Virus record (IMG/VR): IMGVR_UViG_3300021518_000011 | Span: 1-24,291 of that record | Direction: 5' to 3' (one strand) | Origin: a virus | DNA: 24,291 nucleotides | In this document: positions 1,889 through 15,748 of the stretch, one piece after another | Layout of the letters: every line of letters begins with the position of its first letter | How positions within the stretch are numbered: the first letter of the stretch is position 1 | Notes under the pieces: model-generated | Told to the model about the DNA's origin: nothing | Databases searched by the model: none | What the model saw: only the letters and a program-made list of their open reading frames with translations | Made by a program: the position numbers and the translations under genes

Positions 1889-1913
1889 GGGGCGCATCAT
1901 GCGCCCCCTTCTT
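1889..1913. terminator. Bidirectional intrinsic terminator between convergent modules
   Basis: A perfect 8-bp stem, GGGGCGCA at 1889-1896 and TGCGCCCC at 1900-1907, has a 3-nt loop. On the + strand it is followed by CTTCTTATT. On the - strand it is followed by TTTGCTTTG. It lies between the rightward replication genes and the 3' end of the leftward ogr-like gene at 1912, where a two-way terminator would be expected. Confidence 0.75.
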
Positions 1914-2166
1914 ATTGCCCCAGATTGAGCTCCCGCTGCAAGGTTTGCCGCCCCTCCGGCGTCAGTGACCCGAGCAGCCCGAGCACCAGCTGGCTTGTTG
2001 TTCTGGCTGATGGGCTCAGCGTATGGGTAAACGACAAGGTGGCCACCCAGCTATGGCCACATTCGGCATCCGTGCACTGACAGTAGAGATCAGAGACATC
2101 GCTGCTTAGCTTGTTGGTTTTGGTAATGCGACCCCGCTGGCCACACACTTTGCAATAAACCCGCAT
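1912..2166 (-). CDS. ogr: Ogr/Delta-type zinc-finger activator of late transcription
   Basis: An 84-aa protein read from the ATG at 2166 (MRVYCKVCGQRG). C5, C8, C31 and C36 give C-x2-C-x22-C-x4-C, the zinc-binding spacing of P2 Ogr and P4 Delta. The YCQCTDAEC segment matches YHQCQNVNC of Ogr. These proteins bind upstream of late promoters and contact the alpha subunit of host RNA polymerase. A longer reading from 2352 would overlap the portal gene, so the internal ATG, preceded by GGGAAAGGGGG, is preferred. It is 58 bp downstream of the portal gene in the same direction, so late transcription of P and Q probably reads into it and makes a positive feedback loop. In P2 itself ogr lies elsewhere, downstream of D. 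Confidence 0.88.
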   Translation of the reverse strand: MRVYCKVCGQRGRITKTNKLSSDVSDLYCQCTDAECGHSWVATLSFTHTLSPSARTTSQLVLGLLGSLTPEGRQTLQRELNLGQ

Positions 2167-2224: not shown

Positions 2225-3238
2225 TTATACAGCGACGCCCACTGTTTCCCGAAAATTGACCCAGAGGGAGCGAGGGAGTCCTGCGTTGTTGATGGCATCC
2301 TGCACCAGCTCGCACAGCGGCAGCACCTCGTTCCTGGAATAGGTCGCGTCATACTTCTCGGGATCCCCGAGCCCGCCCCCGTTGATCGGAATGATACCGG
2401 CCAATGCCGCAGGGAAGCGGTGCGCCGTCAGCACGTCCTGAGAGGTGATCCCCTTGATGGCCGCAAACTCGTCCTTGGTGGCGATATCCCCCACCGGAAT
2501 AAGCTTGATGCCATCGGGCTTGCCATCCGGGATATTCACGAACATAGAGCGGAAGTTCCCCACCCCCTTGGATTTGGCGATCATCTGCTTCATTTCTTCT
2601 TCAGTGTCATCGTCCATATTTGGGTCGGTGGCGTAGAAGATGAACCCCATGTGGGCACCATTGAGGAAGTATTTACGCCGAAACAAGGTAGCGTCCTGGT
2701 TGAGCAGGGCCGACTGCAGGCCGCCCAGGTAATCGGGCATGCCATAGACTTGCTGCTCGGGGTCGTACTGGGCCAGCCAGATGATGTCCTCCGGCCGATA
2801 GATGATGTTCGGCTTGCCCTGCTGCAGGTAGACAAAACAACCATCCTCGCGCCGGCGCAGGTAGACGCTGGAAAGCGGGTGCAGCCCCACCACCTGGCCA
2901 AAGCCATTGCGCAGCTTAAGCAGCCCCGCGTCCCCGAACTGCAAGTAGTTGTGCACGAACGCGGTGATGGTGCTGCGCAGGTTGGTGAAGCGGCCGGCGA
3001 CCATGTTGCGCCGAGCCATCAGGATAGCCCCATGGTGAGCATTCGCCCGTGCCACCTTGGCCAATCCCTTGCGGTCAATAGGTGGCTGGTAATACTCGCC
3101 GTAGGGGTTGTAGAACACGCCGGTGTAATCGGTCATCCAGGCCATGGGATCGATGGCCTCCGGCATGCTGAACACCACCGAGGGCCGGGGGGATGAGGTG
3201 GCCACCTGGGCCGGTTGAGGTTTGTGTCGCTTGGTCAT
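2225..3238 (-). CDS. Q: Portal protein (gpQ-like, PBSX family)
   Basis: A 337-aa protein close to P2 gpQ (about 344 aa). It matches the PBSX-type portal family: the N-terminal segment (SMPEAIDPMAWMTDYTGVFYNPYGEYYQPP) is followed by the AHHGAILMARRNMVAGRF region, the EDIIWLAQYDPEQQVYGMPDYLGGLQSALLNQ core and a C-terminal HRFPAALAGIIP..GGLGDPEK segment typical of these portals. Twelve copies would form the ring at the unique capsid vertex through which DNA enters and leaves. The ATG overlaps the terminase stop by 4 bp (ATGA on the - strand), indicating coupled translation. Confidence 0.93.
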   Translation of the reverse strand: MTKRHKPQPAQVATSSPRPSVVFSMPEAIDPMAWMTDYTGVFYNPYGEYYQPPIDRKGLAKVARANAHHGAILMARRNMVAGRFTNLRSTITAFVHNYLQFGDAGLLKLRNGFGQVVGLHPLSSVYLRRREDGCFVYLQQGKPNIIYRPEDIIWLAQYDPEQQVYGMPDYLGGLQSALLNQDATLFRRKYFLNGAHMGFIFYATDPNMDDDTEEEMKQMIAKSKGVGNFRSMFVNIPDGKPDGIKLIPVGDIATKDEFAAIKGITSQDVLTAHRFPAALAGIIPINGGGLGDPEKYDATYSRNEVLPLCELVQDAINNAGLPRSLWVNFRETVGVAV

Positions 3239-5049
3239 GCTGCCTTTCTCTCCTGACTGGTTGCCCAGGTGGATTTACGTTTGCGGGTGGTATCGAGCGG
3301 CTCGTTGGCCACGGCGTGGGCGATGGCAAAAAACACGTCCGCGTGACCGGTCACGTTGTCGCGGGCGGCCCGGAAGGTCATCTGACCGCCGCCGGTCGTG
3401 CTGCGCTTGATGGCGAGGAACGCGAGCGGAATATCCCTATCCGAACCGTCCCACTCGATGCGGTTGGCCTCCACCACGTCGATCATCTTGAGGACCAGCC
3501 GCGACTTGCTCTCGATGCTGTAGTTGATGGGGTGGCATACCCCTTTGAAGATGGGCTTCAAGAGGTCATAGACCCCGGAGCCAATGCCGGACACATCGAC
3601 CCCCAGATACGTGACCCGGAACTTCTTGGCGATGCGCGTGATCTCCTGCGCCTGGTACTGGAAGTTGAGCCCGCGCCAGTAGTGCTTTTCCAGCACCCGA
3701 AAGCGCTCACCGGCCACCGTGGGCGGGGCGACCACCACCAGGGTCGCGTTGTCGCGGGTGCGGCTCGGGTCGTAGCCCATCCACACCTCGCGCCGGCCAA
3801 ACGGATCAGGCCGCCCGGGCTTGTAGTCTTCCCACCGGCTGGGGTCTACCCCTGCCCGCTCCATGTCCTGGAACTTGAACACCGACAGCGCATCGTCGAT
3901 AAACCGGCACATGTAGAGGCGATCGAACACCTCCTCCGGGTACTCGTCTTTCAGCTCCTCGATGTCGATGAGGTTGCAGCCAAGACGTATGGCATCCTCA
4001 ATGGTGATGACGTAACGCCACTGCCGATCGGGGCAGATACGGCCACCGTCGCGCAAGTCATCTTCTCTCGGGAAGTCGATGGCCTGTCGGCTTGGGCGGG
4101 TACCTTTCCAGCGTTCACCGGTCCAGAAGCGATAGGCGTCGTGGGTCTTGCTCGAGGGGGTAGAGAAAAACGTCTTGCGCCAGTGGCTCTGGGTCGCCAT
4201 GGCGCTGGCCACATCCATCAACTTTTCAAAGTTGGGGATCCAGAAATACTCATCGATGTAGACGTTGCCAGAGCGGGACTGGGTGCTGTTGGCGTTGGTG
4301 GAGCAGAAGTGCAGCTCGGCCCCGTTCGACAGGACGATGGGGTTACCGGTCAGGGTGACACCCAGGAAGGTCTGAGCAATCTTGCAGATGTAGGAGCGGA
4401 ACACCTCCGCTTGGGCGCGGGTGGCAGAGACAAACAGCTGGTTGCCCCCATTGAGCACCGCATCTTCCAGCGCCTCACCGGCGAAATAGTAGGTCATGCC
4501 GATCTGGCGTGACTTCAAAATATTGCGGGTGCGCGGCAACGCCGGGTCGTTCTTGGCCTCCCGGCAGCGCAGTTGATAGCCAAACAGGGTGCCCAGCCAC
4601 TCGGCAAAGTCATCGGCTGTCAGGTGACCGACCTGGTTCTTGCCCTTCTTGCCGCTCTTGCGATGGCCGCTAACCTGGTCACTGTGTTCACGCTTGCCAC
4701 GGCTGGGGCCTGGCTCTCCCCCCTCCGTTCGCTGGGTCTTGAGGGTCTGCGTACGCTCGGCCCACTTGAGTGCCTTCTCTTTGAGGTTCACATGGTGGCC
4801 GATAAGACGGTCCAGCTCTTCCTGCTCGCCCGGTGTTTTCTTCTCGCGGTCAAGCAGCACATTGACCCGGCGGGCGATGGCATCCTCCACCGCTTCTTCG
4901 GTCAGCAGCTCGCGCCAGCCGAGCTTTTCGGCCCAGTAGTAGATGATGCGACAGGAGTTAAGCCCCAGCTCGTCCTTGATCTCCTGGGGTGTCCATCGTT
5001 TAAGGTAGAGTCCCCGCGCGGCATTGCGGATCTCTTCGGGATACGCCAC
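3235..5049 (-). CDS. P: Terminase large (ATPase/nuclease) subunit, gpP-like
   Basis: A 604-aa protein, close in length to P2 gpP (about 590 aa). Residues 1-45 look like a helix-turn-helix DNA-binding domain (WTPQEIKDELGLNSCRIIYYW). A Walker A-like motif (KSRQIGMT) lies at 179-186 and Walker B (NVYIDE) at 262-267. The RNase H-like nuclease half shows acidic residues D427 (GYDPS), D485 (GVDVSG) and D571 (GHADVFF). It pumps DNA through the portal and cuts at cos with the small subunit. The start is GTG at 5049, supported by GGAG upstream. It is the first gene of the leftward late operon and faces the scaffold gene across a 175-bp control region. A positively charged stretch at 107-138 (KREHSDQVSGHRKSGKKGK) is probably a flexible linker. 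Confidence 0.95.
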   Translation of the reverse strand: MAYPEEIRNAARGLYLKRWTPQEIKDELGLNSCRIIYYWAEKLGWRELLTEEAVEDAIARRVNVLLDREKKTPGEQEELDRLIGHHVNLKEKALKWAERTQTLKTQRTEGGEPGPSRGKREHSDQVSGHRKSGKKGKNQVGHLTADDFAEWLGTLFGYQLRCREAKNDPALPRTRNILKSRQIGMTYYFAGEALEDAVLNGGNQLFVSATRAQAEVFRSYICKIAQTFLGVTLTGNPIVLSNGAELHFCSTNANSTQSRSGNVYIDEYFWIPNFEKLMDVASAMATQSHWRKTFFSTPSSKTHDAYRFWTGERWKGTRPSRQAIDFPREDDLRDGGRICPDRQWRYVITIEDAIRLGCNLIDIEELKDEYPEEVFDRLYMCRFIDDALSVFKFQDMERAGVDPSRWEDYKPGRPDPFGRREVWMGYDPSRTRDNATLVVVAPPTVAGERFRVLEKHYWRGLNFQYQAQEITRIAKKFRVTYLGVDVSGIGSGVYDLLKPIFKGVCHPINYSIESKSRLVLKMIDVVEANRIEWDGSDRDIPLAFLAIKRSTTGGGQMTFRAARDNVTGHADVFFAIAHAVANEPLDTTRKRKSTWATSQERKAA

Positions 5050-5067
5050 GGCGCCTCCATCAGGTGA

Positions 5068-5083
5068 ATGATGGCGCCATCAT
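5068..5083. promoter_or_regulatory. Perfect 16-bp palindrome upstream of the terminase gene
   Basis: ATGATGGCGCCATCAT equals its own reverse complement over 16 bp. It lies 19 bp upstream of the GTG of the leftward terminase gene. It overlaps a possible -10 element on the - strand (TATGAT, 5084 down to 5079). It could be a repressor site or a structure at the start of the leftward late transcript. The function is inferred. Confidence 0.4.
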
Positions 5084-5115
5084 AGCCACCCCAATACCCC
5101 CTCTTATCCCACTGA

Positions 5116-5153
5116 TGTTCGGAACAATTCGGATTTCCCGCTGGATCCGAATT
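5116..5153. promoter_or_regulatory. Candidate late-activator (Ogr-like) binding region between P and O
   Basis: Two dyads overlap at one base. TGTTC-G-GAACA occupies 5116-5126. AATTCGGAT-N10-ATCCGAATT, a perfect 9-bp inverted repeat, occupies 5126-5153. P2 late promoters carry a dyad (TGT-N12-ACA) centred near -55 for Ogr. Here a dyad sits about 50-55 bp from plausible start points in either direction: the TATGAT box on the left and a weak GATAGC or ATCTAT box on the right. The exact P2 spacing is not present, so this would be a divergent recognition sequence. Confidence 0.45.
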
Positions 5154-5224
5154 CAGCAGAACACAACCGGATGAATCACCCGTGCCGACCCGATAGCCTG
5201 AGCCCGCATCTATTGGGAGCAGGC

Positions 5225-6097
5225 ATGAACGAATCAACCTTGAGAACTGGCTTTGTCTGTATCGCCACCGAAGGCAAAGCGGTGGACGGACGAGACATCA
5301 CCCGCGACTGGCTGGTCGACATGGCCGAAACCTATGACCCCAGCTATTACACCGCCGTCATCTGGCCAGAGCACGATCGCTGGTCCAGCTATGGCACCGT
5401 GCAGGCGCTCAAGACCGAAGAAGTGGACGGCAAACTCAAGCTGTTCGCCGTTCTCTGCCCAAACCGGGATCTCATCTACTGGAACCAGAGCGGCCAGTAT
5501 CAGTTCTGCTCCATCGAGCCGTTCGAGCAATTCGCCGATCTGGGGCGCACCTACCTGATTGGTCTGGGCGTCACCGACCAGCCCGCCAGCACCGGCACCA
5601 CCCACCTCAAGTTCAGCAAGAGCAACAAGGGTCAGGTTATCGGTACCAGCGAGCCGCTGGATCTCTCCATGTTCAAACTGCCCAAGCACGACAAACCCGA
5701 CAGCCTGCTCTCCAAGCTGTTCAACCTGCTGTCCAGCCATGGCGAGCAGGCGCCTACCACTCCCCCCAGCCAACCCGAGGATGAGGAAATGAAACCAGAA
5801 CAGTTCGATCAGATGCTGGGGGCCCTCAATGGCCTTGGCACCAAGATCGATGCCTTCAGCGCCAAGCTGGACGCCAAACCGGCCACCGAGGAAACCACCG
5901 AGCCGGTCACCGAGCCCACCAAGGTGGAAGAGAAAACCGGCATCACCGCCGAGCAGTTCACCAAGCTGGAGCAGACCCTGACCAGCCTCACCGACAAGTT
6001 CGGCGAGCTGCAGAGCAAGATCGACCAGTTCTCTGTCGAGAAGCCGGGCCAGCGCCCGGGCGCGCTCGGCGGTGACGATACCCCCACCGTTTACTAA
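5225..6097 (+). CDS. O: Capsid scaffold and maturation protease (gpO-like)
   Basis: A 290-aa protein of the GPO scaffold family. The N-terminal serine protease domain aligns by eye with P2 gpO: D21 (KAVDGR), H50 (PEHDR) and S96 (FCSIEP) correspond to the P2 triad Asp19, His48 and Ser107. After a Pro/Thr/Glu-rich linker (~180-240) the C-terminal ~40 residues (TEQFTKLEQTLTSLTDKFGELQSKIDQF) form a coiled coil, the scaffolding part. It guides procapsid assembly and cleaves itself and other head proteins. ATG 5225 follows GGGAGCAGG; an in-frame ATG at 5171 would overlap the promoter region and add residues not expected in the family. It is the first gene of the rightward late operon. Confidence 0.93.
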   Translation: MNESTLRTGFVCIATEGKAVDGRDITRDWLVDMAETYDPSYYTAVIWPEHDRWSSYGTVQALKTEEVDGKLKLFAVLCPNRDLIYWNQSGQYQFCSIEPFEQFADLGRTYLIGLGVTDQPASTGTTHLKFSKSNKGQVIGTSEPLDLSMFKLPKHDKPDSLLSKLFNLLSSHGEQAPTTPPSQPEDEEMKPEQFDQMLGALNGLGTKIDAFSAKLDAKPATEETTEPVTEPTKVEEKTGITAEQFTKLEQTLTSLTDKFGELQSKIDQFSVEKPGQRPGALGGDDTPTVY

Positions 6098-6106
6098 GGA
6101 GCGGCC

Positions 6107-7159
6107 GTGAGTCAGTCCCTCACCGTCCAGGCCCGTCAGCGCCTGGAGCAATACAGCAATGCCCTGGCCAAGTCCTACGGCATCCCCGTCAACGCGCTGG
6201 CCAAGCAGTTCAGCGTCATTTCTGGCCCGGTCGAAACCGGCCTGCGCTCAGCGCTGCTGGCGTCCGTCGAGTTCCTTGGCCTCATCACCTGTCTGGACGT
6301 GGATCAGATCAAGGGCCAGGTGGTGCAAGTCGGCATCGGCAAGCTGTTCACCGGCCGCAAGAAGGATGGCCGCTTCAACGGCAAGATCGGCGTCGCTGGC
6401 AACACCTACGAGCTGACCGAGACCGATTCCTGCGCCTCCCTCGACTGGGCCACCCTGTGCGTCTGGGCCAACGCCGGCAGCGAGGGCGAGTTCATCCGTC
6501 TGGTCGGTGAGTTCATCAACCGGGTATTTGCCCTAGACATGCTGCGGGTCGGCTGGAACGGCGTGAAAGCCGCTGACACCACCGATCCGGAGAAGAACCC
6601 GCTCGGTGAAGACGTCAACAAGGGTTGGCACCAGCTGGCCCGCGAGTGGAACGGCGGCAGTCAGATCATCAAGGCCGAGGCCGGCAAGAAGATCCACTTC
6701 GACCCGGATGGCAAGGGGGATTACAAGACCCTGGATGAGATGGCCTCCGACCTCATCAACACCACCATCGATCCGCTGTTCCGCCAAGACCCGCGTCTGG
6801 TTGTGCTGGTCGGTACCGATCTGGTGGCCGCGGCCCAGGCCAAGCTCTACAGCGAAGCCACCAAGCCGAGCGAGCAGATCGCCGCCCAGAAGCTGGCCGA
6901 CTCCATCGCCGGGCGCAAGGCCTACATCCCGCCGTTCTTCCCAGGCAAGCGGATGGTGGTCACCACCCTGGACAACCTGCACATCTATACCCAGCGCGGC
7001 ACCCGCAACCGCAAAGCCGACGATAACCAGGACAAGAAGTGCTTCGATAACCAGTACTGGCGGATGGAAGGCTATGCCATCGGCGAGCACCTGGCCTATG
7101 GCGGCTTTGAAGAGGCCGACATCGAGATCGGCGCCGCGCCGGTAGCCCCCGAGGTCTAA
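6107..7159 (+). CDS. N: Major capsid protein (gpN-like)
   Basis: A 350-aa protein, close to P2 gpN (357 aa), starting at GTG 6107 with AAGGAG at 6095-6100. The N-terminus (QARQRLEQYSNALAKSYG) is the helical segment normally cleaved by gpO. Family-like segments follow: SVEFLGLITCLDVDQIKGQVV, a TDSCASLDW stretch, and EFINRVFALDMLRVGWNGVKAADTTDPEKNPLGEDVNKGWHQ. It adopts an HK97-type fold and forms the icosahedral shell. It sits between scaffold and small terminase, as in P2 (O-N-M). Confidence 0.95.
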   Translation: MSQSLTVQARQRLEQYSNALAKSYGIPVNALAKQFSVISGPVETGLRSALLASVEFLGLITCLDVDQIKGQVVQVGIGKLFTGRKKDGRFNGKIGVAGNTYELTETDSCASLDWATLCVWANAGSEGEFIRLVGEFINRVFALDMLRVGWNGVKAADTTDPEKNPLGEDVNKGWHQLAREWNGGSQIIKAEAGKKIHFDPDGKGDYKTLDEMASDLINTTIDPLFRQDPRLVVLVGTDLVAAAQAKLYSEATKPSEQIAAQKLADSIAGRKAYIPPFFPGKRMVVTTLDNLHIYTQRGTRNRKADDNQDKKCFDNQYWRMEGYAIGEHLAYGGFEEADIEIGAAPVAPEV

Positions 7160-9747: not shown

Positions 9748-10884
9748 ATGTGGCCTTATGTGCAGATCAACAACTTGAACCAGATGCAGGGGCCGGTGAC
9801 GGAGGTCGAACGCCACCTGCTGTTCATCGGCAGCGCCGCCAGCAACACCGGCAAACTGCTCTCCCTCAACGCCCAGTCAGACCTCGACCAGCTGCTCGGC
9901 AGCGCAGACAGCGAGCTCAAAGCCAACCTGCTGGCCGCCCGTGATAACGCCGGCCAGAACTGGAGCGCCGGCGCCTACGTGCTGCCCACCGACCAATCCT
10001 GGCTGGATGCCGTGCGCAGCGCCCAGCAGACCCAATCCTTTGAAGGGGTGGTGGTACTGGGTCAGGTGTGGGACCAGGCAAAAATCAACGCCGCCCACGC
10101 CCTCAACCAGGAGCTGATCGCCAAGTGGGGGCGCTGGCAGTTCATGCTGCTGGCGGTGCCCGGTATTGTTGCCAAGGCCGTCGGCAAGGATGGCACCGCC
10201 CAAGCATGGAGCGAGTACGAGGCCAAGCTGGCCACCCTGCAGGACGGTATCAAGGCCGACTCCATCAGCCTGGTGCCCCAGCTTTGGCCCAACCTCGCCG
10301 GCGCCTATGCAGGACGTCTGTGCAACCGGGCGGTGAGCATCGCCGACAGCCCCTGCCGGGTGAAGACCGGCGCCCTGGTCGGCCTTGGCAACAAGCCGGT
10401 GGACAAAGACGGGATCCCGCTGCCGCTGGCCACCCTGCAGACCCTGGAACAAAACCGGTATTCGGTACCGATGTGGTACCCGGATTATGACGGCACCTAC
10501 TGGGCCGATGGCCGCACCCTGGATGCCGAGGGTGGCGACTACCAGGTGATCGAAAACCTGCGTATTGCCTACAAGGTGGCGCGCCGGATGCGGATCCGGG
10601 CCATTGCCCGCATCGGGGATCGCTCGTTCAACTCCACCCCGGGCAGCACCGCCATGGCCATCACCTACTTTGGCAAGGATCTGCGCACCATGGCCAAGGC
10701 AACCACCATCAACGGCCAGCCGTTCCCGGGCGACATCGCCTCCCCCCAGGATGGCGACATCTCCATCCAGTGGACAGCCAAGAATCTGGTCTCGGTGTTT
10801 GTGGTGGTGCGCACCGTGGACTGCCCCAAGGGGATCATCGTCAACATCATGCTCGATCTGAGCCTCAACAACGGGGAGGGTTAA
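9748..10884 (+). CDS. Contractile tail sheath protein, DUF2586 type
   Basis: A 378-aa protein in the position of P2 FI but of the DUF2586 sheath type found in HP1/K139-like phages, not the P2 FI family. Recognisable parts are the opening WPYVQINNLNQMQGPVTEVERHLLFIGSA, a NRYSVPMWYPDYDGTYWADGRTL stretch and the C-terminal VARRMRIRAIARIGDRSFNSTPGS region, where the conserved sheath core lies. The last residues (VVRTVDCPKGIIVNIMLDLS) supply the strand exchanged between subunits in contractile sheaths. The gene starts 3 bp after S; the tube gene follows 3 bp after its stop. Confidence 0.88.
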   Translation: MWPYVQINNLNQMQGPVTEVERHLLFIGSAASNTGKLLSLNAQSDLDQLLGSADSELKANLLAARDNAGQNWSAGAYVLPTDQSWLDAVRSAQQTQSFEGVVVLGQVWDQAKINAAHALNQELIAKWGRWQFMLLAVPGIVAKAVGKDGTAQAWSEYEAKLATLQDGIKADSISLVPQLWPNLAGAYAGRLCNRAVSIADSPCRVKTGALVGLGNKPVDKDGIPLPLATLQTLEQNRYSVPMWYPDYDGTYWADGRTLDAEGGDYQVIENLRIAYKVARRMRIRAIARIGDRSFNSTPGSTAMAITYFGKDLRTMAKATTINGQPFPGDIASPQDGDISIQWTAKNLVSVFVVVRTVDCPKGIIVNIMLDLSLNNGEG

Positions 10885-15428: not shown

Positions 15429-15748
15429 ACGAACCAAAGTACATCGATCTCCTGGTGGTGAACGGCGCTTGGCAACTCGATGCCGGCGGCCAGCCGCGCT
15501 ACACCCAGGACCGCCACAGCATCGGCCAGGACATCAAGCACCGCATCATGGAGTCGGGGCTGGCCCGCAAGCTCATCGGCGAGCGCAGCCCTACCCTGCG
15601 CGCCGACGTGATGACCGAGATTGAACTGCTGGTAGAAGACGACGAGCGGCTGGTGCCCGGCACCATCCTGATCCGTGAAGAGGCCCCCGACCGGGTGCTG
15701 GTCACCGCTCGCACCTATGAATTCGGCGAACTGGAGGTAACCCTGTGA
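15425..15748 (+). CDS. Baseplate wedge/sheath-initiator-like protein, DUF2590 (W position)
   Basis: A 107-aa protein taken from ATG 15425, which overlaps the tape measure stop (ATGA). An in-frame ATG at 15407 would add MGGATR inside the tape gene and is less likely. It resembles DUF2590 (YIDLLVVNGAWQLDAGGQPRYTQDRHSIGQDIKHRIMESGLARKLIGERS, then D.MTEIELLVEDDERLVPGTI). The IGQDIKHRIMESGL segment and position just before J suggest the job of P2 gpW/T4 gp25, which starts sheath polymerisation at the baseplate. Functional assignment is by position and general resemblance. Confidence 0.8.
   Translation: MNEPKYIDLLVVNGAWQLDAGGQPRYTQDRHSIGQDIKHRIMESGLARKLIGERSPTLRADVMTEIELLVEDDERLVPGTILIREEAPDRVLVTARTYEFGELEVTL

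Follow-up and report, generated by a model that had tools for sequence, protein, structure and literature searches.

The late promoters of phage P2 carry an activator word, TGT-N12-ACA, near position -55. The P2 record (NC_001895) holds three activator sites for four late promoters, and the shared pO/pP site (3057-3087) lies midway between the divergent P/Q and O promoters. The same arrangement is found in phage 186 (NC_001317), in which a B site (3798-3817) is placed between the divergent late promoters pV and p12. In both phages the activator belongs to the Ogr/B/Delta zinc-finger family, the site is a single pair of GTTGT/ACAAC-like half-sites, and the activator gene, ogr or B, is next to the tail genes. 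Ogr sites have also been predicted at the same divergent gap in the P2-like phages phiRSY1/phiRSA1 and Smp131, spelled either TGTTGT-N13-ACAACA or TGT-N12-ACA, with four late promoters in each phage; unlike the array described below, no tandem half-sites are reported in the accessible parts of those papers (PMC5694545, PMC3931495). For phages of the K139 type, the accessible part of the Smhb1 paper places ogr between the portal and replication genes and proposes that late expression is timed differently (PMC8537503).

The window analyzed here is an entire virus record of 24,291 bases from an Aeromonas P2-like phage, which is approximately 83% identical to phiO18P and A051 in the region around 5050-5224. 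Like P2 and 186, it has one candidate activator site midway between predicted divergent late promoters and encodes an activator of the same zinc-finger family. It differs from both in that the site is built of TTCGG/CCGAA half-sites arranged in two pairs and in that ogr ends a leftward run that begins with P and the portal gene. Our searches of an open-access library gave no account of this array; an inverted repeat might be mentioned in the genome papers that first described K139 and phiO18P. Taken together, the array, its conservation and apparent uniqueness, the promoter geometry read from sequence, and the co-occurrence with Ogr make it quite probable that 5116-5163 is a variant Ogr-dependent divergent late switch, which would be bound by the phage's own Ogr-like protein and would serve two back-to-back promoters. 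The features of the region are as follows.

1912-2166, minus strand: Ogr-like zinc-finger activator (PF04606), 84 amino acids from the ATG at 2166; last gene of the leftward run
2225-3238, minus strand: portal protein (Q); leftward operon
3235-5049, minus strand: terminase large subunit (P), GTG start; first gene of the leftward operon
5068-5083, no strand: 16-bp palindrome ATGATGGCGCCATCAT, perfect, over the leftward -10 and predicted start; Aeromonas-specific
5079-5084, minus strand: predicted leftward -10, TATGAT; -35-like ATAAGA at 5102-5107, predicted start near 5072
5116-5163, no strand: palindromic array of four half-sites, proposed site of the Ogr-like activator; centre between 5139 and 5140
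5116-5126, no strand: small palindrome TGTTCGGAACA (TGTTC-G-GAACA), perfect in the window
5118-5122, plus strand: outer left half-site, TTCGG
5126-5153, no strand: 9-bp inverted repeat AATTCGGAT-N10-ATCCGAATT, perfect, spacer of 10
5128-5132, plus strand: inner left half-site, TTCGG, within the 9-bp inverted repeat
5147-5151, plus strand: inner right half-site, CCGAA, within the 9-bp inverted repeat
5157-5161, plus strand: outer right half-site, CAGAA, one mismatch to CCGAA
5194-5199, plus strand: predicted rightward -10, TAGCCT; -35-like ATGAAT at 5171-5176, predicted start near 5206
5225-6097, plus strand: head scaffolding protein (O); first gene of the rightward operon

The divergent control region and its repeats

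The control region lies between the divergent terminase gene P and scaffold gene O, the location seen in phages of the P2 kind, and the original prediction of a divergent late control region is supported. The rightward gene order is scaffold, capsid, terminase small subunit, and the next head gene, and the Ogr-like protein at the end of the leftward run scored 51 bits against PF04606 (cut-off, 26.3). Mechanical open reading frame calling places the scaffold start at the ATG at 5171. We rejected this start because it sits in the predicted rightward -35 region and because the match to the scaffold family begins at residue 19, which is encoded at 5225; a start at the ATG at 5225, which is preceded by GGGAG, is more likely. 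An RNA hairpin at the terminase ribosome-binding site (inverted repeat 5050-5060/5068-5078) was also rejected, because the predicted leftward transcript excludes most of its upstream arm.

Three dyads had been described in this region, and all three repeats are present (5068-5083, 5116-5126, and 5126-5153). Their chance expectation was estimated from 30 first-order Markov resamples of the whole window, which contains one perfect 16-bp palindrome versus 0.97 expected, one perfect 9-bp inverted repeat with a spacer of 10 versus 0.13 expected, and six such repeats with spacers of 3 to 20 versus 3.5 expected. On their own the repeats are close to chance and not striking, and they were judged to be real because they are conserved in relatives. 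Their independence did not hold up. The repeats at 5116-5126 and 5126-5153 are parts of one imperfect 48-bp palindrome, 5116-5163, with arms of 19 nt that are 79% complementary, and the remaining one overlies the leftward -10 together with its probable start. As an element of its own the TGTTC-G-GAACA palindrome was rejected: relatives keep the TGTTC of the outer half-site, followed by TGAGCA or CAAGCA, and the palindrome is a local accident. The exact word TGT-N12-ACA is absent from 5050-5224, as originally stated, and the only two copies in the window (at 3864 and 3912) are inside the terminase gene. The word of the P2/186 subclass is thus lacking from the P/O gap, by a measure that is strict, since NC_001895 gives P2's own pO/pP site as TGT-N12-CCA.

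Conservation and apparent uniqueness of the array

The array has the layout TTCGG-N5-TTCGG-N14-CCGAA-N5-CAGAA and agrees at 19/20 positions with the pattern of its class, which is four half-sites with a 10-bp step and a centre of N13-14. A lack of conservation of the dyads in relatives, which was to count against the original prediction, was not observed: 62 of the 69 loci in the first round (a count that left out L001 and L057) have the inner dyad in the same position, including loci of Aeromonas, Vibrio, and Xenorhabdus, and so does K139. The P/O region of K139 (NC_003313) has the same array (19/20) and layout, with an ogr-like gene, orf13, near the portal gene. No activator site is annotated in the K139 record, whose putative P16 -10 (15488-15493) would fall inside the array.

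A P/O gap was identified for 273 of the 282 loci. When 2.9 million viral contigs were scanned by the four-half-site pattern alone, blind to genes, 48 matches were obtained, 44 of them between P and O, with neither gene more than about 130 bp away. Three others adjoined O at the end of the stretch, no P being found in the stretch available, and for the remaining match neither P nor O was found. No second array (at least 16/20) was detected in the 152 loci that have an array of at least 16/20 in the P/O gap, which comprise 2.18 Mb of partly overlapping sequence with phiO18P (34 kb) and K139 (33 kb) covered whole and most other loci as partial genomes. The same was true of the 24,291-base record itself, which falls short of the genome length of its relatives and could be a fragment. 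There seems to be one array per genome in this class, whereas P2 and 186 have further late sites elsewhere in their genomes. A scaffold scan anchored on P2 returned near-clones of P2.

Two variations of the site were noted. L192, an HP1-like phage, has three tandem copies of CCGAA on the right side of its array. A third spelling of the site (TTCCTAGA / TCTAGGAA or TTCCTAAA) occurs in the P/O gaps of L224, L228, L253, L255, and their relatives, where it accompanies another type of Ogr (TISSREN or TITSREK) and where -10-like elements seem to be at a similar long distance.

Placement of the predicted promoters

The 133 loci matching the array at 17/20 or more positions and having full flanks were aligned on the array and reduced to 29 representatives at 75% identity. 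Information peaked at 8 to 12 and 18 to 22 bp from the centre, which are the half-sites, weakly at 33 to 35 bp, where there is a -35-like TGA, and sharply at 55 to 60 bp, where an A at 56 and a T at 60 form a -10 signature. This A...T signature had its A at 55 to 57 bp in 56 of the 58 flanks (exactly 56 in 50 flanks) and at 45 to 47 bp in 5 of 58. In P2-type phages (n = 10), by contrast, it was at 45 to 47 bp in 19 of 20 flanks and at 55 to 57 bp in none. These 10 phages were drawn from 20 records (18 fetched, plus P2 and 186) and were anchored on GTTGT-N12..14-ACAAC, with 186 anchored by hand; ENT90, FLC5, PHL101, KL3, Alfacinha1, Pmp6, pZM41, PfPro, and ESSI-2 were excluded for want of a clean GTTGT/ACAAC pair under this rule, and PSP3 was excluded because it was misanchored. 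The predicted promoters of the array class are about 10 to 11 bp, or one helical turn, further from the centre than those of the P2 type.

The dyad in the window is midway between two predicted promoter cores, with -10s at 55 to 60 and 56 to 61 bp from the centre, rather than about 45 to 50 bp with starts at about 55 bp as in the P2/186 subclass. TAGCCT, the predicted rightward -10, is the same hexamer as that at -12 to -7 of P2 pP and 186 p12, and the putative P17 -10 of the K139 record is within 2 nt of the -10 predicted here. Since the start sites of P2 and 186 are, according to their records, about 55 to 56 bp from the centre of the activator site, those of the window are predicted to be about 66 to 68 bp away, near 5206 on the plus strand and 5072 on the minus strand. 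A sigma-70 consensus scan found no promoter in this region, which is expected for activator-dependent promoters and is no proof of them.

The displacement of the promoters is as large as the step to the outer half-site (10 bp), which leaves the polymerase-proximal half-site approximately 40 bp from the last -10 base in both classes. This constant register suggests that the outer pair is functional and that the activator would contact polymerase as it does in P2. A different view is that the Ogr site consists of the inner pair only, a P2-like dyad of two half-sites with a new word, in which case the outer copies would be decayed or accessory and the shift would have another cause. The inner pair does match the P2 pF dyad, GGTTG-N14-CAACC, in its 24-bp layout, and the outer half-sites are weaker and vary more, being TTCCA or TTGAA in some Aeromonas loci. 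However, outer positions 20 to 22 carry 1.6 to 1.8 bits in the 29 representatives, which is near the values for the inner positions, the 48 scan matches require all four half-sites, and the shift is the size of the outer step, all of which makes an inner-pair site rather unlikely.

The 16-bp palindrome ATGATGGCGCCATCAT reaches from about -11 to about +5 of the leftward promoter as predicted. It may combine the promoter core with the start, or it may be an operator peculiar to this lineage. All 52 Aeromonas-type gaps carry it in perfect form, and positions 5065-5084 are invariant in 14 representatives. This conservation, over both the -10 and the predicted start, would suit an operator through which a further regulator closes the leftward promoter in Aeromonas phages. 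We consider such an operator unlikely: the -10 itself makes up half of the palindrome, neither the window nor phiO18P has a second copy at up to 3 mismatches, only 1 of 101 other array gaps contains it (L186, from the same contig as the Aeromonas-type L060), and about one palindrome of this kind per window is expected by chance. The additional regulator that had been raised as an option is not needed to account for the data, this Aeromonas-specific operator being the form in which it might still exist.

The Ogr-like protein and residue 26

An Ogr homologue was encoded in all 114 array loci that extend at least 5.2 kb beyond the start of P, and in 95 of these 114 it was no more than 4 kb from that start. 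This co-occurrence alone is no proof of contact because Ogr belongs to all these phages anyway. Irregular Ogr genes were seen in a few loci. The record of HP1 (L074, NC_001697) lists no Ogr, and an Ogr-like stretch at 10435-10635 on the minus strand, just downstream of the portal gene, has its first Cys pair in another reading frame and looks either frameshifted in the record or broken. L013, a Vibrio prophage, has two Ogr-like stretches side by side (5603-5842 and 5894-6046), and L006/L025 (Aeromonas tecta) has an intact Ogr together with a degenerate remnant (2555-2806 and 6850-6963).

In some lineages the half-sites have changed in concert to CGGAA. A scan for this spelling yielded 41 matches, with 13 between P and O, 2 (L312 and L321) adjoining one of these genes at the end of the stretch, and 26 set aside; among the 8 matches of a later scan, L337 was in no P/O gap. 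We compared Ogr proteins in 73 of 103 distinct rows, the other 30 (including L226, with Asp, and L232, with Val) having been left out because the spelling of their inner half-sites was not a clean form of either CCGAA or CGGAA. Apart from a C-terminal column with no residue in any CGGAA row, the only column that split the two spellings without error was residue 26 (the Asp of DLYC): CCGAA was accompanied by 61 Asp and 1 Arg, and CGGAA by 8 Asn, 2 Glu, and 1 Gln. This residue was chosen after the alignment had been inspected. The expectation of a non-Asp residue was then stated beforehand for newly read CGGAA Ogr proteins and held in six of six (L332, L333, L334, L328, L324, and L326), of which L332 to L334 have Glu and are otherwise close to the Ogr of the window. 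L330 was not counted, as it is from the contig of L281, and no Ogr was found in the short contigs of L320 and L294. Two phages of one host from the later scan, L338 and L339, combine CGGAA with Asp 26, both going against the rule, and an absolute rule that Asp 26 means CCGAA was rejected. The totals are 61 Asp and 1 Arg for CCGAA and 17 non-Asp and 2 Asp for CGGAA.

L226 also fits the residue 26 pattern poorly. On a tree there were four site changes and three to four independent pairs, with two to three of three pairs in the expected direction and none opposite (p = 0.25, not significant). Given the Asp 26 of L338 and L339, the poor fit of L226, and the small number of pairs, the covariation is suggestive and lends moderate support to the Ogr-like protein reading the array. 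With conservation and co-occurrence added to this partial covariation, the original suggestion that the Ogr-like protein reads a sequence other than the P2 word is very probably correct. It is quite improbable that another phage or host regulator, either a repressor or an architectural protein, binds the array while Ogr acts elsewhere: Ogr contact is deduced from sequence, and an extended palindrome of four sites is unlike the single P2 pair, but the array has the position of the P2 and 186 activator sites, is in fixed register to both -10s, covaries in part with Ogr residue 26, and had no competing candidate site in the genomes scanned.

According to the Ogr-dependent switch that we favor, the Ogr-like zinc-finger protein would bind the palindromic array of four 5-bp half-sites and recruit host RNA polymerase to both divergent promoters. 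The leftward promoter would drive terminase, portal, and ogr itself, and the rightward promoter would drive scaffold and the head and tail genes. Because the leftward operon includes ogr, a positive loop is proposed. With the promoters one helical turn further out, the polymerase-proximal half-site would keep about its P2 distance to the -10. From this arrangement we infer Ogr binding, activation, the number of bound subunits, the start points, and feedback. The locus is best read as a variant class of Ogr-type switch, with a new word, doubled half-sites, promoters one helical turn further out, and apparently one site per genome, and not as a new kind of system. We suggest more tentatively, and with some doubt, that four tandem half-sites, one bidirectional site per genome, promoters displaced by one turn for register, and a residue 26 that helps to read the second base pair of the half-site together define a distinct class of Ogr switch; Asp 26 with CCGAA and Asn, Glu, or Gln with CGGAA would then constitute a natural specificity code.

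The P2 word has been used to predict late promoters in P2-like phages, as described in the accessible parts of the corresponding reports (PMC3931495, PMC5694545), and the array class lacks this word. Sequence searches can use the array to mark the late switch in Aeromonas, Vibrio, Xenorhabdus, and other Peduoviridae. In evolutionary terms it resembles a clean experiment, with an extra outer half-site pair and promoters one helical turn further out, and the partial residue 26 code opens the surface with which the Ogr zinc finger reads DNA to direct tests. The array-class switch is both testable and useful.
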